Positions 38,372 through 47,593 of a DNA stretch of 64,000 nucleotides are shown here, one piece after another. How positions within the stretch are numbered: position 1 is the stretch's first letter; the number at the start of each line of letters is the position of its first letter. Under the pieces are notes generated by a model. It saw only the letters and a list, made by a program, of their open reading frames with translations, was not told the DNA's origin and ran no database searches. The position numbers and the translations under genes are program-made. The stretch is from an uncultured Mollicutes bacterium (GTDB lineage: Bacteria > Bacillota_I > Bacilli_A > RFN20 > CAG-826), in NCBI GenBank assembly GCA_945936135.1, contig CAMESG010000002.1, positions 1 through 64,000 of the forward strand, in the 5' to 3' direction.

Positions 38372-41300
38372 TTATGCTTCCGGCTCGTCTTGGGATCCCA
38401 AGACGAGTTTTTTCTTTTCATCCTTCACACTTGTCACGAAGGTATAGATCAAATAACCGGAAAAAGCGGTGGTTCCAATGCCCCAAAGGATGGCGGCGAG
38501 ATTGCTGCCCGGCGTCATGTAACGGAGCTCATAATGGATGGAAAGAGGCTTGCCTTCTTCATCAAGGACATGCGGGGCGATAAAGCCAACGAGGCCTCCA
38601 TCGAGTTTGATCATACGACAATCTTGCTTCTCCCCGTTTGGAAGGAAAGCGGTTGCCTGCCAACCCTTATCGTAACCAAGTTGAGTCACGACAATGCGAT
38701 CTTCCGAATAGGAAGTATCAAAGGAGAAAACGTTCGTGTCATAGGTGACGTTTTGGAGTTTGTCCGCCTGGCGGGCGTTGTTCTGCTTTTCCCATTGCTC
38801 ATAGGTCGTCATGTGGAAATAAGCATCGACGTTCATCCCCATGGTGCCGCTTCCCGGCCAGCAGAAGACGATATTCGTGACCCTCCCTTTCGCGTATAAC
38901 CCAAAGGTAGAGTAACGGCTGTTGTAATAGGAATGGGATCCTTCGACGCGACGGGCGTTATCGAAGCAATTGTATTCAAAACTCAAAAGCTGATTGGTCT
39001 TGCCATCTTCCGTATCACCTAAAAGATAGATGCGTGGAACCAATTGATAACGTCCATCGCTTGTTTTGTTCGCATAATAATCGTTCGCATACTTGATCTC
39101 AACGTAGAGCCCTTTGGAAGGATTTCCTTCTTCTCCTGGGTTGAAATATTGCCCGCTCACGGGAGAGAAAGCGAGCATGCCCGTGTCGCGTTCCATCGGA
39201 TTCAACGTCTCGTTGAAACTCGAAACGATGTTTTCTTTCTTCGTTTTGAAGTGTTTCAAGAAGAAACCCAAGCCTTCGTTGTAATACGAATGCTTTTGAG
39301 AAGGAATCATCAAGTCTCCTTCTCCAACGGTGTAATAGGTGGCCTTGATGTTGCGGCTCGTAAGAGAAAGGATCTCCGAAGAGGGGATATCCGGGACATC
39401 TTTCCTGACGTTGAACCCTTCAGGGAGCGTTTCATCGTGTGCGACGATCGCGCCCTTTTGCTGGGCTTTTTCCGCGCGCAATAATTGGACAAAACCATCT
39501 CTTCTCCACGCCGGGGTGTAGAAATTCGTCCGATAGAAGTCGTCCTTCACGGGCGTTAAAGCGTAGAGGTAATTCGAATCGACCGCCCAGCCAAGGCTTG
39601 GACGGTATTCTTCTGGAACGCCATAGACCCTGGATAGATCGCGGTTCTTGCTTGCTTCGACGATCTCTTCCGCGCCGAAGGGAACGTTCGCGGTTGGGAA
39701 GAAAGCCGAACCGTCTTCGTTTTTCCATTGGGAATAGGAATTCGAAATCTGGTAATAACGATAGCCAAGCATCAAGTCCGTGCCTTCGCGTTTGTTCCCG
39801 TAATACCCACTCCAAGAAGGATTGTAGATGTCTTCGGTTTGATACGAATTGATCACGGATCCCGGGTATTTCATATGGTTGTTTAGCGCGAATTGCTCAA
39901 CGTCGAAGTTCATCAATGAATGGAAATCCGCGGAACCATTGAGTCCCGCCACTTTTGAAGCGTACTTCGTGCCTGCGTAGGCATCCGCATAGGTTCGATA
40001 GAAAGAAGAATCTTTTTCCGAGAGAACTCTTTCAACGTAAGCCGCCGTATCGCGGTTTCTTTCTCCGCCGGCAAAGGAGTTTTTATAGTTCCAAAGGCCA
40101 TCGTATAGATAGGCAAGGTTGCCCATAACGATTGCTTCAACGGCAACCGAGATCACAAGCGCTTTCGGGAGCCACTTCTTGCGTTGGCCCCAAATCATTA
40201 AGAAAGAATCGATCGCGACGAGTGCCAATTGGTAATAGAGGTACCAGGCGTTATGGATTTGCCCGTTGTAGATTTCGCTCGCACCAACGTAGGTCACTGG
40301 CCAATAGGTTTGATGGTTCGGGTTCCATCCCGCGCCAGAGAAGGTCACGCCCTTAAGGAGCTTATCCGTTAGGAAGAAAGTGAAAAGGGTGCCCATGATC
40401 GCAAAGAATCCAGAAAGAATCGGGATATATTCCGGCGCTTCTTTCCGTTGATCAAAGCCCCAGGCACAGTAATAAACGATGATTGGGATTAAAACGAGAT
40501 ACCAACGTCCATAGCCATTCCCCGAGAAGGCGTAGAAGAAATAATAGCTGAAGTTCGTGAAGACAAAATAGGTGATGAGCATGACGGCGACAAGGTGCAA
40601 GCCCTTCTTCTGGCGAATCGATTCCAGCAAGGCCGTGAAGAACAAGATCACGCAGGGGGTATAGGTAAACAAACTCGCCGTCCAAGCATCATACGAGCTG
40701 CGCGTCAACGGCAAGGCCACGTGACCCGCGGTCGGGAAGAAGAAAGACACCAAGCCCATGAGTTCGCGCCCTGGGTGATCGCCGACAGGTTCAAACACCA
40801 AAGCGAAAAAAGTGCGCAAATCATGGCTAGTTAATGAGGTTTTTACCGCTTCTAGATACGCGGTGCCGATCGAAACGCTTCGCCCCGATAACGAAGATTC
40901 CCGCAAGGATGGGAGAAGGGTGAAACTACAAAGCATCAAGCCTACCGCGAAGCAGGAGATACCCATGCCAATGACGATCCAATTTTGTTTCGCACTCCTT
41001 TGCTTCAAGGTCGTGAAGTAACGCCATAAGGCATACAAAACGCCAAAGATGCAAACACAAACAAGAAGGAAGAAAGAGGTGATCCCTTCTAAGAACAAGG
41101 CCCAGATCAAAATCCCTGGCTTCCGCTCTCGTATCACCTTTTCAATGCCCCAAAGAACCATCGGGACGTAGATCACGGCGCTGACGAAGCTCGGAAAGCC
41201 AACAAAGAAGGAAACATATCCCGAGAAGCCCGCGGCAATCGCGGCAAAACGGGCCGTCCATTCCTTGATCCCCATGTACTTCAAATAGCTGCGCGTCAAT

Positions 41301-41728
41301 AAGGTCGCAACCATCACCTTGACCGCGGTGAAGATCGCCATCATCTGGGGAATCCATCCCTTGGGGAAGAAAACTAACGCAACAATGAAGGGATCAAAAA
41401 GGCCATAATAGGAGTTCGATCCAATGCTGTCTGTGCCGATGTAGGTCGCAAAATCATAAAGAGGGAAGCGTCCCGTGGAAAGGAAGGTCCGCCACGCATC
41501 GTGATAGGTATAGGCAAAGGGAATGTATTGCCACGTCGTATCCCAGTTCAGCATCTGGGTAAACGAGTTCTCAAAAAGAGAAAACCCAATCCAGGCAAAA
41601 CCTAGGAGCAACACGAATAACGCGTAATAAAAAAGGGAATCCCAGCGGTAAAGAAAAGGGAAAAGCTCTCGAAAGCTTCTCTTTTTTCTCTCCTTTGTTC
41701 GATAACTAGCTAGCGACGACGAACTCAT
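38372..41728 (-). CDS. YfhO family membrane glycosyltransferase-like protein
   Basis: A 1118-residue protein with about 12-13 membrane helices in the first 580 residues, a large extracytoplasmic domain (about 580-1075) and a final helix (AAILWGIGTTAFSGYLIYTFVT). This is the GT-C-like YfhO layout; Bacillus YfhO/CsbB-type proteins place sugars on lipoteichoic acid or other envelope polymers. The WDTTWQYIPFAY stretch in the first loop fits the acidic catalytic loop of GT-C enzymes. Last gene of the patatin-PII operon, with ATGA overlap. Confidence 0.88.
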   Translation of the reverse strand: MSSSSLASYRTKERKKRSFRELFPFLYRWDSLFYYALFVLLLGFAWIGFSLFENSFTQMLNWDTTWQYIPFAYTYHDAWRTFLSTGRFPLYDFATYIGTDSIGSNSYYGLFDPFIVALVFFPKGWIPQMMAIFTAVKVMVATLLTRSYLKYMGIKEWTARFAAIAAGFSGYVSFFVGFPSFVSAVIYVPMVLWGIEKVIRERKPGILIWALFLEGITSFFLLVCVCIFGVLYALWRYFTTLKQRSAKQNWIVIGMGISCFAVGLMLCSFTLLPSLRESSLSGRSVSIGTAYLEAVKTSLTSHDLRTFFALVFEPVGDHPGRELMGLVSFFFPTAGHVALPLTRSSYDAWTASLFTYTPCVILFFTALLESIRQKKGLHLVAVMLITYFVFTNFSYYFFYAFSGNGYGRWYLVLIPIIVYYCAWGFDQRKEAPEYIPILSGFFAIMGTLFTFFLTDKLLKGVTFSGAGWNPNHQTYWPVTYVGASEIYNGQIHNAWYLYYQLALVAIDSFLMIWGQRKKWLPKALVISVAVEAIVMGNLAYLYDGLWNYKNSFAGGERNRDTAAYVERVLSEKDSSFYRTYADAYAGTKYASKVAGLNGSADFHSLMNFDVEQFALNNHMKYPGSVINSYQTEDIYNPSWSGYYGNKREGTDLMLGYRYYQISNSYSQWKNEDGSAFFPTANVPFGAEEIVEASKNRDLSRVYGVPEEYRPSLGWAVDSNYLYALTPVKDDFYRTNFYTPAWRRDGFVQLLRAEKAQQKGAIVAHDETLPEGFNVRKDVPDIPSSEILSLTSRNIKATYYTVGEGDLMIPSQKHSYYNEGLGFFLKHFKTKKENIVSSFNETLNPMERDTGMLAFSPVSGQYFNPGEEGNPSKGLYVEIKYANDYYANKTSDGRYQLVPRIYLLGDTEDGKTNQLLSFEYNCFDNARRVEGSHSYYNSRYSTFGLYAKGRVTNIVFCWPGSGTMGMNVDAYFHMTTYEQWEKQNNARQADKLQNVTYDTNVFSFDTSYSEDRIVVTQLGYDKGWQATAFLPNGEKQDCRMIKLDGGLVGFIAPHVLDEEGKPLSIHYELRYMTPGSNLAAILWGIGTTAFSGYLIYTFVTSVKDEKKKLVLGSQDEPEA
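38384..38413 (+). terminator. Terminator of the dnaX operon, embedded in the yfhO coding end
   Basis: A 24-bp perfect palindrome (38384-38407; 12-nt arms, each ending CTCGTC/GACGAG outside and centred on GATC) followed by six T. It encodes residues near the C-terminus (LGSQDEPEA) of the oppositely oriented YfhO protein. Confidence 0.8.
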
Positions 41729-42063
41729 AAGGACTCCTTGGTCTCCTCAACGGTTTCTCCAATGCCCACAAGATCGTCCACGGGCAAAGCAAAGGCGATG
41801 CCCATGCCCTTGGTCTTCATGCCAGCGCCTTCGTTGATCGCCATCAAAACGGCATCCGAAAGGGCCTTTTCAACCAAGATCAAAACGATTTCTTTTTCCG
41901 GGGTGACGGTCACGCCAAAGAAAGCCTCGGCTTCTTTGTTCCCAGACCCGCGTCCCGTCAAAACGGTGCCCCCACGAGCGCCCGCTTGCTTCGCGGCTTC
42001 CATCACGAGATCGGTGAATCCGCGATTCACGATCGATACGATGGCAACATAAGGTTTATTCAT
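41725..42063 (-). CDS. PII-like signalling protein, copy 2
   Basis: A 112-residue small protein with the PII ferredoxin-like fold: KPYVAIVSIVNRGFTDLVMEAAKQAGARGGTVLTGRGSGN, EKEIVLILVEKALSDAVLMAINEG and GMGIAFALPVDDLVGI. GARGGTVLxGRG followed by EKEIV is the core of the PII T-loop/nucleotide site region. The start at 42063 has GGAGGAAG upstream and overlaps copy 1 by 8 bp. Probably binds adenine nucleotide and controls the DUF1538 membrane partner; inference from operon. Confidence 0.85.
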   Translation of the reverse strand: MNKPYVAIVSIVNRGFTDLVMEAAKQAGARGGTVLTGRGSGNKEAEAFFGVTVTPEKEIVLILVEKALSDAVLMAINEGAGMKTKGMGIAFALPVDDLVGIGETVEETKESL

Positions 42064-42460
42064 GGGTCTTCCTCCGTTTCTTCTGTTTCTTGCGCCCTTC
42101 TTCATCCATGGTGTTGCTTAGCATCTTATAGGTCGATACTCCCGCAACCGAATCAAGACGAGTAATGAAGGCTAAGCCCTTGGACAGGGGGCTGATAGCG
42201 AATCTTTCTTGCAAGGCGATCTTCAAATCGAACCAGGCGTTCTCCCGGATTACCGAGCACAAAACGTCTTTCTTCAACGTGCCTGTGCCCAAAATCGCGT
42301 ACATATCGTTTGGAGCGGTGCCTTGGCCCGAAACGAAATAGACCGAGTAGGCGCCTGCTTTCTTTATCATTTCTGCAATGGCGGCGCCTTGGCCTTTGCC
42401 GACGATGACCGTCAGGAAGAGCAAGGGGCAGACGCGATGGGTTTGATCATACGTAGCCAT
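42056..42460 (-). CDS. PII-like signalling protein, copy 1
   Basis: A 134-residue protein in the PII family but distinct from its neighbour: FLTVIVGKGQGAAIAEMIKKAGAYSVYFVSGQGTAPNDMYAILG, KKDVLCSVIRENAWFDLKIALQERF, SKGLAFITRLDSVAGV. Its GKGQG and the C-terminal basic tail (EEGRKKQKKRRKTHE) are not shared with copy 2. GGAGGG lies 10 nt before the ATG; it begins 3 nt after the DUF1538 gene. Confidence 0.78.
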   Translation of the reverse strand: MATYDQTHRVCPLLFLTVIVGKGQGAAIAEMIKKAGAYSVYFVSGQGTAPNDMYAILGTGTLKKDVLCSVIRENAWFDLKIALQERFAISPLSKGLAFITRLDSVAGVSTYKMLSNTMDEEGRKKQKKRRKTHE

Positions 42461-42463
42461 AAA

Positions 42464-44041
42464 TCAATTTCCCTCCGGCAAGAAATGCACCACTTGATTG
42501 TCGTCCTCGCCGACAAGGTGGCGGCGAGCTTTGTGCAACGCGATATTCGATTGGATGACGCTTACAAGACCCAACGATTGCAAGACGATCAAAGGCATCA
42601 TCGCGACCATCGAAACCAAGCCAAAGCCGTATAAATAGACGTCCCTTCCTTGCGCAAAGGCGAAACCAATGCAGAAAGGCAAGACGAACGTTGAGGTCAT
42701 CGGGCCAGAGGCAACTCCACCCGAATCAAAGGCCATCGCGGTATAAACCGGCGGCACAAGGAAGCTTAGAACAAAAGCCAAAATGTAGCCCGGGATCAAA
42801 TAATAAGCCAAGGAGAAATGGTAGTAACTGCGGATCAAATGAAGGACGACCGCGGCGCCAATCGATAACGCCAAGGTCGCTAAGACGGTCCCCGCTTTGA
42901 TCGAGCCATCGGACACATCTTCAATCTGCTTCACCAAAACGTGAACCGCGGGTTCAGCAAGCACGCCGAAAACGCCGAAGAGGCCGCCTAAAATCAGCGT
43001 CACCCAGAAGATACCGTCCTTCGAACCTAAGGCCTGCCCTAGTTTGGAAGCAATCGGCAGGAAGCCCGCTTCGACCGCAGAAAGGAAGAACACCAAGCCA
43101 AAATAGGTGACGATCATGCCTAGGCCAACACGTAAAAGAACGGTCCATTTAAGGCGCAGAAAGCAGAAATTGTAGATCAAAAAGAAGAGGAGGATCGGAC
43201 CAACGGACAAAGCGACGGAGCCTAGCGAGCTCGTGATCGCATGCGCGAAATTCGCTCCCATGTCGCCGGTCAGCTTTGAAAGCGGATCCGCGTACTCGCT
43301 CATCGGAGGAAGCTCTCGGCCACTCCATTTCATGATCATGGCAATGACGATGACCGCCAAGATGGGGCCGATCGAGCAAAGCGCCGTCAAACCAAAAGAG
43401 TCGCCGTTATTCTTGCCGCGGTGGCTGGCCGCGCAGCCTAGGCCAAAGCCAAGCAAGAAAGGCACGGTCACAGGCCCCGTCGTGACTCCGCCAGAATCAA
43501 AGCAGATCGGCAAGAAACGAGGATCGATCAAATAAATCAAAGTAAAGGCCAAGGCATAGAAGGCAAGGAACAAGATATTCAAGTTCTTATGGAAAAGGAT
43601 GCGAAGAACGCCGATCACAAGGAAGACACCAACGCCAACGCCAATCGTCCATACGATGACGTTCTCTTCCAACCCAATTTGACCGCTTAACACGGAAAGA
43701 TCGGGCTCGGCAATCGTCACCAAGACCCCCAAAATGAAGGTCATCGCGATAACAAAGAAGAAATTTTTCTTCTTCATCAAGGATCCGCCGATTTGGACGC
43801 CGATCTCGCTCATGGATTGCTCGGTCCCGACATTGAACATCGTCATGCCGGCGATGATCATGACCACGGCGATCAAGAACGAGAACATGTCGTTGTTTTC
43901 AAGAACGTAGGCCGGGGCAAAAAAGTCGGAGGGAAGCCCAAAACGGGCGACCAAAAAGAAAACGATAATGACAATCGTGATCGGAAGGGTCGATAAAACC
44001 GACTCCCGAAGTTTTGAAAGCCAATACTTACCGTTTCCCAT
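42464..44041 (-). CDS. Duplicated DUF1538 membrane protein
   Basis: A 525-residue integral membrane protein made of two related halves. AEPDLSVL (112-119) and FDSGGVTTGPVTV (181-193) in the first half recur as AEPAVHVL (362-369) and FDSGGVASGPMTS (438-450), giving an offset near 250-257 residues. Each half has about six hydrophobic helices. Buried acidic AEP and DSGG motifs in membrane regions are typical of ion or substrate coordination in transporters. The family has no assigned function. Two PII genes follow directly, suggesting regulated transport. Overlaps the RluA gene by 14 bp. Confidence 0.85.
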   Translation of the reverse strand: MGNGKYWLSKLRESVLSTLPITIVIIVFFLVARFGLPSDFFAPAYVLENNDMFSFLIAVVMIIAGMTMFNVGTEQSMSEIGVQIGGSLMKKKNFFFVIAMTFILGVLVTIAEPDLSVLSGQIGLEENVIVWTIGVGVGVFLVIGVLRILFHKNLNILFLAFYALAFTLIYLIDPRFLPICFDSGGVTTGPVTVPFLLGFGLGCAASHRGKNNGDSFGLTALCSIGPILAVIVIAMIMKWSGRELPPMSEYADPLSKLTGDMGANFAHAITSSLGSVALSVGPILLFFLIYNFCFLRLKWTVLLRVGLGMIVTYFGLVFFLSAVEAGFLPIASKLGQALGSKDGIFWVTLILGGLFGVFGVLAEPAVHVLVKQIEDVSDGSIKAGTVLATLALSIGAAVVLHLIRSYYHFSLAYYLIPGYILAFVLSFLVPPVYTAMAFDSGGVASGPMTSTFVLPFCIGFAFAQGRDVYLYGFGLVSMVAMMPLIVLQSLGLVSVIQSNIALHKARRHLVGEDDNQVVHFLPEGN

Positions 44042-45113
44042 GGTTCATCTTCTTGTTTCCTTGCCCAAAACGAGCGCTCCTCGCCGCGGACTTCTTCTGC
44101 CCAACCGCGATTTTGGTTTGGCTGCGAGTGAGACGGGCCGATTTCTCTTCGATCTTCTGCCGTTCCTTGCGCCCCTTCAAAGCCCCTTTGCCTTCTTCCA
44201 TCAACTTTTTAAACGACGACGGCATCGGTGCCTTGATATCGTAAGATTTTCCCGTCAATGGATTCGTGAAAGCAAGTTCATAAGCGTGAAGACCTAAGCG
44301 TTTCAACGGATCGCTCGGCTCACCATATTTATCATCGCCGACAACGTAATGGCCAATGTTGCCAAGTTGAACGCGGATTTGGTTCTTTCTTCCTGAATCC
44401 AATGCAACATCCAGCAAGGCATAGCCATCCCGCTCTTTAATGGTTTTATACTTCGTGATCGCGAGTTTTCCTTTGGAAGGATTTTTCGTAACGAACACCA
44501 AATTGAATTGATCTTGCGCAAGATAGTCACGCAAAACGCCTTCTTTTTGTTCCATTTCCCCTTCAACAATCGCATAGTAATAACGTTTCGTCACCACTTG
44601 TTGCCATTCTTTTTGGAGCGCTTCCCTCGTTTCCGCGTTCTTCGCGAAAATCAAAACGCCGGAAGTGTCTTCGTCCAAACGGTGGACGACATAGATACGC
44701 GCCTTGCGGTTCTTGGCGACCAAATAATCGTTCACTTGGCGATAGGCCGTTTTTCCTTTTTCGCGCTCGGTCGCGACGCTAAGCAAACCCGAGGCTTTAT
44801 CGATTGCGATAAGGTCGTTGTCTTCGAAAAGAATCGGGAGCTTATGAAGTTCGTGTCTTGCGATTGGGCGTTTGGACACCGTGACCACGTCTTCGGGGAC
44901 AAGTTTGTAGTCAAATTGAGAAACGGGGACACCTCCAACCGCTACTTGATGATGCGAAAGCAAAGATTTGACCGTCTTCCGCTTGGATTCCCCCATTTTG
45001 AAAAGGAGAAACTCCATCAAGGTGGTTTCACGATAGACGTTCCATTCGGTGATCATCTTCGGATTCACCAAGCCCTTCTGTGGGCGGTTGGCTTTTTTAT
45101 CGTTCTTATTCAT
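44028..45113 (-). CDS. RluA family pseudouridine synthase
   Basis: A 361-residue enzyme isomerising uridine in rRNA or tRNA. It has an N-terminal S4-like RNA-binding region (about 30-80), then the catalytic domain with HRLDEDTSGVLIF (catalytic Asp) and GRKNQIRVQLGNIGHYVVGDDKYG. The C-terminal 55 residues are very basic, an added RNA-binding tail. Site specificity (RluB-F or RluA/C/D) cannot be told. Coupled to patatin (8-bp overlap) and DUF1538 (14-bp overlap). Confidence 0.92.
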   Translation of the reverse strand: MNKNDKKANRPQKGLVNPKMITEWNVYRETTLMEFLLFKMGESKRKTVKSLLSHHQVAVGGVPVSQFDYKLVPEDVVTVSKRPIARHELHKLPILFEDNDLIAIDKASGLLSVATEREKGKTAYRQVNDYLVAKNRKARIYVVHRLDEDTSGVLIFAKNAETREALQKEWQQVVTKRYYYAIVEGEMEQKEGVLRDYLAQDQFNLVFVTKNPSKGKLAITKYKTIKERDGYALLDVALDSGRKNQIRVQLGNIGHYVVGDDKYGEPSDPLKRLGLHAYELAFTNPLTGKSYDIKAPMPSSFKKLMEEGKGALKGRKERQKIEEKSARLTRSQTKIAVGQKKSAARSARFGQGNKKMNHGKR

Positions 45114-45978
45114 GCTTCAAAAACTCTTTCAAGGCGGGAAGCAGTTCTCCTGCCCTTGCAACGCCTGCTTCATAGACCGGGATTAACTTGCGGGCGTGTC
45201 GTTCGGTCTTCGACACCTCCAAGGATTCTTTTGGCGCGATGATGAAGGCTTTCCCTTCTTGTTCTAACGCCAAGAGATCTTCCATGTCCTGATTATAAAC
45301 CCTTGCCCAATCTAAATAGGCTTTCGCAAAGTCTGGATATTTGCGGAAAACCATTTTCGGCAAAGCCGCTTTCGGATCAATGGTCTTTTCTTTCTTTCGA
45401 TAATCAATGGGTTTTGTGAGGATCACCACAAGTTTGGAATAGCCTTCTTCCAAAGGCTTGCGCCAAGGGATCGCGGCGGTCATCCCCCCATCAAGATAAA
45501 GCCCTCCGTCCACATCCACCGGTTTCGCAAGGAAGGGGAGAGATGCGCTTGCGGCGATCGCCGCCCAGAAATCCCTTACTTTTCCCTTTTCAAAATAGGT
45601 GACTTGGCCGGTTTCTAACGAAGTCGCAACCGCAACATAACGCGCAGGAGACCGATCCATCGTTTCATAATCTAAAGGAGCGTTCTTTGAAAGTTCATGG
45701 AAGAGATAGGAGAAATCGAAGAGACCATCCTTGCTGATGTAGTTATAAAGACTGAGGAATTTTCGATCTCCGACAAGTTCCGTGGTAACGAACCGCCCAC
45801 ATTCGGCGTCTTCTGATAAATAAACAAGGTTATTCAAAGCGCCGGCGCTCGTACCAATGAGATAGGAAAAACGGAAGCCTTCTTTCAAAAGGACCTCTTG
45901 AACCCCGGCCGTGAAGGCCCCGCGGGTTCCGCCGCCTTGGCTGACGAGGGCATATGGTAAGAATTCCCTAGGTTCCAT
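45106..45978 (-). CDS. Patatin-like phospholipase
   Basis: A 290-residue YjjU/RssA-type acyl hydrolase. The oxyanion loop is QGGGTRG (14-20), the nucleophile elbow GTSAG (Ser44) and the catalytic Asp sits in DGG (163-165). Expected to cleave acyl chains from lipids in the cytoplasm. The start is ATG 45978: the longer frame to 46164 reads antisense through the 5'-nucleotidase signal region. Only 25 bp separate this start from that of the divergent gene. First gene of the operon leading to DUF1538 and the PII genes. Confidence 0.9.
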   Translation of the reverse strand: MEPREFLPYALVSQGGGTRGAFTAGVQEVLLKEGFRFSYLIGTSAGALNNLVYLSEDAECGRFVTTELVGDRKFLSLYNYISKDGLFDFSYLFHELSKNAPLDYETMDRSPARYVAVATSLETGQVTYFEKGKVRDFWAAIAASASLPFLAKPVDVDGGLYLDGGMTAAIPWRKPLEEGYSKLVVILTKPIDYRKKEKTIDPKAALPKMVFRKYPDFAKAYLDWARVYNQDMEDLLALEQEGKAFIIAPKESLEVSKTERHARKLIPVYEAGVARAGELLPALKEFLKHE

Positions 45979-46003
45979 TACTTTGTAATGGTAAGATATC
46001 TCC
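45976..46003. promoter_or_regulatory. 25-bp divergent start region with palindrome
   Basis: CATTAC-TTT-GTAATG (45976-45990) includes the patatin start codon. TAAGAT (45992-45997) lies 6 nt before the plus-strand ATG at 46004. No RBS fits on either side, so both transcripts must be leaderless or start within the opposite gene. Confidence 0.55.
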
Positions 46004-47593
46004 ATGAAAACCTCAAAGAAAATCGGCAAGTTATCTCTTCTTTCTCTCCTTGGCGCCCTCTTCGCTCTCGCTTCTTGCGGGCCGACGAACGCCTCATCGA
46101 GTTCTTCTCCCGAGGAAGAATCTTCTTCCGCTTCCTCGGAAACCAAGTCGGAGTCCTCGAGCATTACTTCTTCTTCGAGCGAAGAAAGCTCGTCGGAAAG
46201 TTCTCTATATCAAGGCGATCCCAAGACCTTCCGTTTCTATTGCATCAACGACTTCCATGGAAGCATCGTCAACCGCGGGAATGAAGTCGGGCTTCAAAAG
46301 TTATTTTCTTTCTTAAAAAGCGAGGTCGATAAAGATCCGGAGCACACCTTCGTTTTCTCCGCGGGCGACATGTTTCAAGGTTCTTGGGAATCCAATTCCA
46401 ATTATGGCAAATTCATCACCGAAGCGATGAACGCGGTTCCCTTTACCGCGGGTGCTCTTGGAAATCATGATTTCGATTACGGATTAGAAGCTTTAAAGGA
46501 TCTTCGCGATCTTGCCGCCTTCCCGATGTTAGGCAGCAACATCTATTACTACGGAACAGAGACCAAATGGGAAGAGGCAGGATCCTCTCTCCTCGTTGAA
46601 AAAGATGGCGTGAAAATCGGCATCATCGGAACGATCGGCCAAGGCCAAACGACGTCAATCCAATCAAATATCGTTAAAGATTTCGATTTCATTGATCCTG
46701 TGCCAATCATCAAAGAAGAATCGAAGAAATTGCGGGAAAAAGGCGCGCAAATCATCGTTAACATTGCCCATAATAAATCAACGTCGTTGAACTCCTTCAC
46801 CTTCACCGGAGGCGCGAAGCCCTATTTCGACGGCTGCTTCCTTGGGCACAGCCACCAAGCAGAACGCGTCATTCGTCAAGGCGTTCCCTACATCCAAGGC
46901 GGCTGTAACGGAAGGCAGTATTCCTACTTCGAACTTAAGATCGACGAACTCGGTGTGACCTATGATAACGCCAATTATTTCGACGCCCCTTCCTTCATGG
47001 AAATCGACCCCGTATTCATTGAGTTGGAAAACAAATACCTTGACGAGGCCTTCTACACGAAAACCAATGAAGTGCTTGCCAATCTCACAGGGACCCGTTT
47101 GGATTCGCATGGCGTCGCTCGACTTGGCGTCAAAGCGATGTACGAAGAATACAAAAGTCTCCACCCAGATCTCGTCTGCACCATGGAGAACTCACAACGC
47201 GCCACCTTGTATACCGGTCCCTTCACCTATGGCGAGCTCTATCAAGCTACGCCGTTTATGAACCACTTCGTCGTCGCCAAGGTCTTGGGAGGCGAAATCA
47301 AACGGCAGGCTTCCTATAACTCGACCTACACGGGCGACTATGAAACCTATGCGACGTTAAATGACGATACCTATTACACCTGCGGAATCATCGATTACGT
47401 TTATTACCATCGCGACACCAACAAAGACTTCGATTATTTCCCTTCCGCCACCAATCCCGAAAACATCATTCATGAATACGTGGACTACCCCGTCGATATC
47501 ACCGCACGATATTTGAAAAACACCCTACACGGAGAGATCAACGGCTTGGATTTCGAACAAGATTCTCCTGGTTTCTGTCTCTATGGGCGTTAA
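46004..47593 (+). CDS. 5'-nucleotidase/metallophosphatase lipoprotein
   Basis: A 529-residue surface lipoprotein: signal peptide with lipobox LASC (Cys25), then a Ser/Glu linker to about residue 68. The metallophosphatase domain has CINDFHGS, GDMFQGS, GALGNHDFDYG and CFLGHSHQ; the C-terminal nucleotidase domain starts near residue 345 (TCTMENSQRATLYTGPFTYGELYQATPF-like segment). It probably frees nucleosides and phosphate from extracellular nucleotides. Confidence 0.93.
   Translation: MKTSKKIGKLSLLSLLGALFALASCGPTNASSSSSPEEESSSASSETKSESSSITSSSSEESSSESSLYQGDPKTFRFYCINDFHGSIVNRGNEVGLQKLFSFLKSEVDKDPEHTFVFSAGDMFQGSWESNSNYGKFITEAMNAVPFTAGALGNHDFDYGLEALKDLRDLAAFPMLGSNIYYYGTETKWEEAGSSLLVEKDGVKIGIIGTIGQGQTTSIQSNIVKDFDFIDPVPIIKEESKKLREKGAQIIVNIAHNKSTSLNSFTFTGGAKPYFDGCFLGHSHQAERVIRQGVPYIQGGCNGRQYSYFELKIDELGVTYDNANYFDAPSFMEIDPVFIELENKYLDEAFYTKTNEVLANLTGTRLDSHGVARLGVKAMYEEYKSLHPDLVCTMENSQRATLYTGPFTYGELYQATPFMNHFVVAKVLGGEIKRQASYNSTYTGDYETYATLNDDTYYTCGIIDYVYYHRDTNKDFDYFPSATNPENIIHEYVDYPVDITARYLKNTLHGEINGLDFEQDSPGFCLYGR

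Follow-up and report, generated by a model that had tools for sequence, protein, structure and literature searches.

The stretch of DNA analysed here (the window) comprises positions 1 to 64,000 of contig CAMESG010000002.1, from the 1.23 Mb, 13-contig genome of an uncultured Mollicutes bacterium (GCA_945936135.1). Three consecutive genes on its minus strand encode a two-repeat membrane protein of the DUF1538 family (UmpAB-type; 42464-44041, 525 residues) and two PII-like proteins, PII-A (42056-42460, 134 residues) and PII-B (41725-42063, 112 residues). As an earlier reading of the bare sequence (the original prediction) had stated, the genes are tightly packed: the start of PII-A is separated from the DUF1538 gene by a gap of 3 nucleotides (nt), and PII-B overlaps PII-A by 8 nt. 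The open frame of PII-B reaches 42105, and conservation favours 42063 as the likely start.

The membrane protein matched the DUF1538 profile (PF07556) in two copies, with 365.6 bits against a curated cut-off of 22.6 (E = 7.8e-110), which places it in this family. With the halves searched separately, the N-terminal repeat (43334-43903, minus strand, as are all features below) scored 187.7 bits and the C-terminal repeat (42563-43195) 193.6 bits. Both carry the same two motifs in the alignment: AEP at residues 111-113 (43703-43711) and FDSGGVTTGP at residues 181-190 (43472-43501) in the first repeat, AEP at residues 362-364 (42950-42958) and FDSGGVASGP at residues 438-447 (42701-42730) in the second. 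The spacing between repeats is 251 residues for AEP and 257 for FDSGG, in agreement with the predicted two-fold repeat of about 255 residues. One acidic residue per motif (E112, D182, E363 and D439) is unchanged throughout a 14-member alignment, and in the predicted model (mean predicted local distance difference test score, pLDDT, 79; predicted template modelling score, pTM, 0.78) these four residues lie at helix breaks of both repeats. Such an arrangement would fit a cation-binding centre.

The fold comparison was aimed at known transporter folds (SbtA, CPA/NhaA and elevator types). Foldseek returned no match for the model at E <= 0.001 (best 6.5e-3), and in a second-look structure comparison every Z was <6, with weak similarity to EAAT and DASS transporters. 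No solved structure of DUF1538 was found by sequence. On alphaproteobacterial plasmids the two DUF1538 halves are encoded as separate genes, and both halves of the window protein align with a single one of these separate halves. The original prediction was mistaken in holding that no substrate is established for the family. In Halomonas zhaodongensis, the DUF1538 proteins UmpA and UmpB assemble into a hetero-dimer; when everted vesicles of E. coli KNabc were assayed, this dimer showed Na+(Li+,K+)/H+ antiport that depended on pH (PMC5484666).

PII-B is a member of the Pfam P-II family (PF00543, 31.8 bits, cut-off 25) and could be aligned to solved PIIs. PII-A gave no match of its own to PF00543; it is placed in the PII family because profiles of its relatives recover it and the tree groups it. 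Judged by these comparisons, PII-A is a diverged relative of PII-B rather than a Pfam member. The alignment agrees with the earlier description of two PII-family proteins that are unlike in loop residues and tails. Among solved chains the best profile match was 9p1x_H (E = 9.9e-7), which we take to be a NifI1-like protein.

The pairing of DUF1538 with PII genes recurs widely. DUF1538 loci were gathered from related genomes and across the wider phylum, as well as from plasmid records and a single named genome, and the 124 with readable downstream sequence were counted (at least one, L029/L127, is represented twice; L060, cut off inside DUF1538, was excluded). In all 124, PII-like domains lie directly downstream of DUF1538 on the same strand, although this and all other linkage counts are uncorrected for relatedness. 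There are two PII genes in 85 loci, one fused tandem gene in 35, three genes in 2 and one PII next to separately encoded DUF1538 halves in 2. The linkage spans Bacillota and Alphaproteobacteria, and the recurrence of the arrangement is far beyond chance. The expected conservation of PIIs in DUF1538 neighbourhoods was thus found, and the linkage strongly supports the predicted pseudo-two-fold DUF1538 transporter with closely linked PIIs. Public annotation already shows the pairing, with the PIIs labelled 'P-II family nitrogen regulator'. In the literature searched, five papers name DUF1538, one of which studied it. No paper describing the pairing was found in our search; subscription papers and preprints lay outside that search, so a prior mention is possible.

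Whole genomes gave a similar picture. Among 392 genomes of the phylum, DUF1538 was present in 94, a match to PII profile A3 in 104 and both in 93 (Fisher p ~4e-84, kinship ignored). The 298 genomes without DUF1538 included 4 with a strong PII pair and 7 with weak single matches only. In the window's own family (123 genomes), 93 have both, 24 neither, 5 only the PIIs and 1 a remnant. This last genome, G226, is the sole DUF1538 genome without PII, and holds just a 105-residue remnant of the start of DUF1538; it is a case of joint loss of DUF1538 and PIIs. At the locus itself (L140, 1435-1752), DUF1538 has decayed to its first ~95 residues and the PIIs are gone.

Some loci have unusual layouts. 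Three successive PII genes follow DUF1538 in L086 (G066; order B-type, A-type, B-type) and in L105 (G363), where DUF1538 is also split in two. In L066 (Methylocystis rosea plasmid) and L067 (Chelativorans plasmid), one PII, of B type, accompanies a split DUF1538, and these plasmids were typed as mobilizable and conjugative. A scan of named genomes yielded two loci. Scans of viral contigs yielded two fragments, both at contig ends, and two scans yielded none. In L130 (1-690), a fused tandem PII occupies the extreme end of a contig with a viral classification; this is probably host DNA next to a prophage.

In a tree of 100 PII domains (116 columns, with many forks open), most first-position PIIs (A) fall into one group and every second-position PII (B) lies on the opposite side. 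Also on the B side are the single alphaproteobacterial PIIs and ten domains from the first position, of which nine belong to fused genes. The simplest reading of these sequences would be a B-type ancestor that was duplicated, followed by divergence of A. A model of the tandem PII built from three rows was poor (pLDDT 52), though the best alignments of its second domain were to structures of PII and SbtB (Z ~10).

A conserved peptide, D-x-Q-[IV]-I-x-F, usually ends DUF1538 after a variable linker, and reads DNQVVHF in the window protein (42482-42502). In 87 of 125 DUF1538 tails its score exceeded a 1% shuffled-tail threshold, a count that is somewhat optimistic because the scoring matrix was built from the same tails. 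The codons of the tail vary synonymously, and therefore the constraint acts on the protein and not on the ribosome-binding site of the next gene. The tail is a candidate PII-docking peptide. When PII-A types were split by a GGT signature (a split by profile score was uninformative), the tail was present in 87 of the 105 loci whose first PII is diverged and in 0 of the 16 whose first PII is B-like, a striking difference in counts. This pattern comprises ~4 changes of PII type on the tree, for which an independent-pairs test is without power, and we treat the co-variation of the tail with diverged PII-A as a lead.

What might the PIIs bind? GlnK holds ATP/ADP by T29, K90, R101, R103 and F92, among others (PMC8395244), and these pocket positions were mapped onto PII-B through HMMER alignments to solved PIIs. 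Across 121 PII-B sequences, T29 is kept as T33 in 100% and F92 as F91 in 93%. At the K90 position PII-B has I/L/V and at the R101 position G, in place of the canonical phosphate ligands of GlnB/GlnK, and the residue at the R103 position varies, being non-basic in most sequences. Nucleotide-binding residues had been expected in the pocket: the T29 and F92 positions bear this out, whereas the K90 and R101 ligands are lost. A lysine after the loop is near-invariant (K57 in 95% of PII-B; K64 in 86% of PII-A, with R in a further 13%). An adenine-type pocket with altered phosphate handling is plausible from these residues. The proposal that the PIIs read ATP/ADP, by the canonical mechanism, is unsupported by them, as the K90 and R101 positions are replaced. 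Pairwise alignments also show the T-loop region to be shortened by 4-6 residues relative to solved PIIs. This speaks against a deep insertion of the T-loop of the kind known from GlnK-AmtB and SbtB-SbtA (PMC8395244, PMC8352866).

The three genes lie within a run of six on the minus strand. In transcription order, a patatin-like gene (45106-46164) comes first and a gene for an RluA-type pseudouridine synthase (44028-45113) second, upstream of the DUF1538 gene; a YfhO-like gene (38372-41728), downstream of PII-B, comes last. Because adjoining genes overlap or sit 3 nt apart, the run looks like one operon. PII-B and the YfhO-like gene overlap by 4 nt (window 41725-41728). A YfhO-like sequence is present in 19 additional loci of relatives, where it may also belong to the operon. 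We found no other P-II protein, no Amt (ammonium channel) and no PF03553 antiporter in the host genome, and a search for defence systems gave no match. An ammonium channel as partner for the PIIs was rejected for the lack of Amt. The genome has two CPA-type exchangers (PF00999), so the DUF1538 protein is not the sole candidate antiporter there.

We favour, with moderate confidence, the reading that the locus encodes a PII-controlled, UmpAB-type antiporter of monovalent cations (Na+/Li+/K+) and protons that unites both halves in a single chain and whose activity is set by a mixed assembly of the two diverged PIIs on its cytosolic face. Antiport is suggested by the DUF1538 identity of the protein, by the activity of its homologue UmpAB (PMC5484666) and by the four invariant acidic residues at helix breaks of the model. 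Control by PII is suggested by the near-obligate linkage, the conserved tail, and the lack of Amt and of any other P-II in the genome. The predicted PII heteromer and its gating of DUF1538 are plausible. The antiporter would exchange Na+, Li+ or K+ for H+, with the PIIs, as a mixed assembly or in tandem form, placed at its cytosolic face. The PIIs would bind the transporter, perhaps gripping the D-x-Q-[IV]-I-x-F tail instead of inserting a long T-loop. As UmpAB works in E. coli without a cognate PII being supplied (PMC5484666), PII would be dispensable for transport, and its binding probably restrains or tunes transport rather than enabling it. The switch would be a small ligand in the inter-subunit cleft of the PIIs; this is probably an adenine compound, bound without the help of K90 and R101. 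A fuller scheme is offered only tentatively, as one that we think rather unlikely as a whole: the two diverged PIIs, or one tandem PII, would form a mixed ring that reads its ligand without the classical phosphate contacts, grips the C-terminal tail of the antiporter and links the nucleotide state of the cytosol to the balance of Na+/K+ and of pH, with a second target where the antiporter has been lost.

Several observations weigh against a UmpAB-type antiporter served by its own PIIs. The window protein scored 137.3 bits against the UmpA model (NF041627, equivalog cut-off 490) and 101.9 bits against the UmpB model (NF041628, cut-off 500), both of which describe half-length proteins. These sub-threshold NCBIfam matches, far under the equivalog cut-offs, indicate family membership without proving the same function, and sequence divergence of this order means that the substrate may differ from that of UmpAB. 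The tail is absent from 18 of the 105 loci with diverged PII-A, and relatedness among the loci is contained in every linkage count. DUF1538 in this branch might move other cargo (a different cation, or an anion together with Na+) and be gated by its PIIs in the manner of SbtB-SbtA; the antiport of UmpAB would then be a side activity or a peculiarity of the halophile branch. The low scores, the presence of two CPA-type exchangers in the genome already, and the gating of nutrient uptake by PII systems elsewhere speak for such a cargo. However, the sole functional data for the family are of monovalent cation/proton antiport (PMC5484666) and the conserved acidic residues fit cation binding, and we regard other cargo as possible but unlikely.

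A further difficulty comes from genomes that keep the PII pair where DUF1538 was not found: G078, G247, G250 and G439, of one genus, and G235, of another. In G078, G235, G247 and G250, DUF1538 gave no match even at E <= 10, and PII-A and PII-B are intact (L131-L134). The pair directly adjoins RluA, at the place expected for DUF1538, in three of these four loci, and in G235 one extra gene lies between RluA and the pair. Non-synonymous divergence (dN) of the pairs in G078, G247 and G250 is 0.004-0.155, against synonymous divergence (dS) of at least 0.6, which indicates purifying selection. PIIs that persist under purifying selection after the loss of DUF1538 are not regulators of DUF1538 only, and at least in genomes without DUF1538 the pair must serve another function. 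These pairs are what would be expected if the PIIs were a general sensor whose main target is not DUF1538, placed in the DUF1538 operon mainly for co-expression, with any effect on DUF1538 being indirect. We consider this improbable, since in 117 of the 123 family genomes the gain and loss of DUF1538 and PII went together and the genes remain adjacent in every other locus seen, other phyla included. The remaining alternative, that the PIIs are ordinary GlnB/GlnK nitrogen regulators lying here by chance, would accord with the score of PII-B above the Pfam threshold and with the public annotation. It is contradicted by the changed K90 and R101 positions, the loop shortened by 4-6 residues, the genome without Amt and the near-obligate linkage; the linkage counts largely refute it, and we judge it very improbable.

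Elements of the favoured system, an antiporter under PII control, have counterparts elsewhere. Two adjoining, diverged PII genes likewise occur as NifI1-NifI2, whose target is nitrogenase, a soluble enzyme. UmpAB belongs to the same Pfam family as the window protein and has the same two homologous halves, but these are separate proteins rather than one chain, and the UmpAB paper makes no mention of PII (PMC5484666). SbtA-SbtB likewise combines a transporter and a PII-type gene in one operon, and its PII has non-classical nucleotide use; however, SbtA is of another transporter family by sequence, there is one PII rather than two, and SbtB inserts a structured T-loop ~20 Å long, whereas the window PIIs have shorter loops (PMC8352866). 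AmtB-GlnK is likewise a membrane protein with an adjoining PII gene, but AmtB is an ammonium channel, and of the ATP/ADP/2-oxoglutarate ligands K90, R101 and R103 of GlnK (PMC8395244) the first two are replaced in the window PIIs. PII-controlled transporters (AmtB, SbtA) are therefore already known, as is, within the account cited in PMC7726332, PII-NG, a PII group linked to the cation (metal)/proton antiporter CzcABC. The latter is an RND metal-efflux pump with a single PII.

PII proteins are the textbook sensors of nitrogen and carbon. If the favoured reading is true, PII control extends to ion and pH balance, and the near-obligate pairing with DUF1538 occurs here in an organism without an ammonium channel or any other PII. 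DUF1538, whose single studied member is active in E. coli in the absence of a PII, would then gain a regulator.

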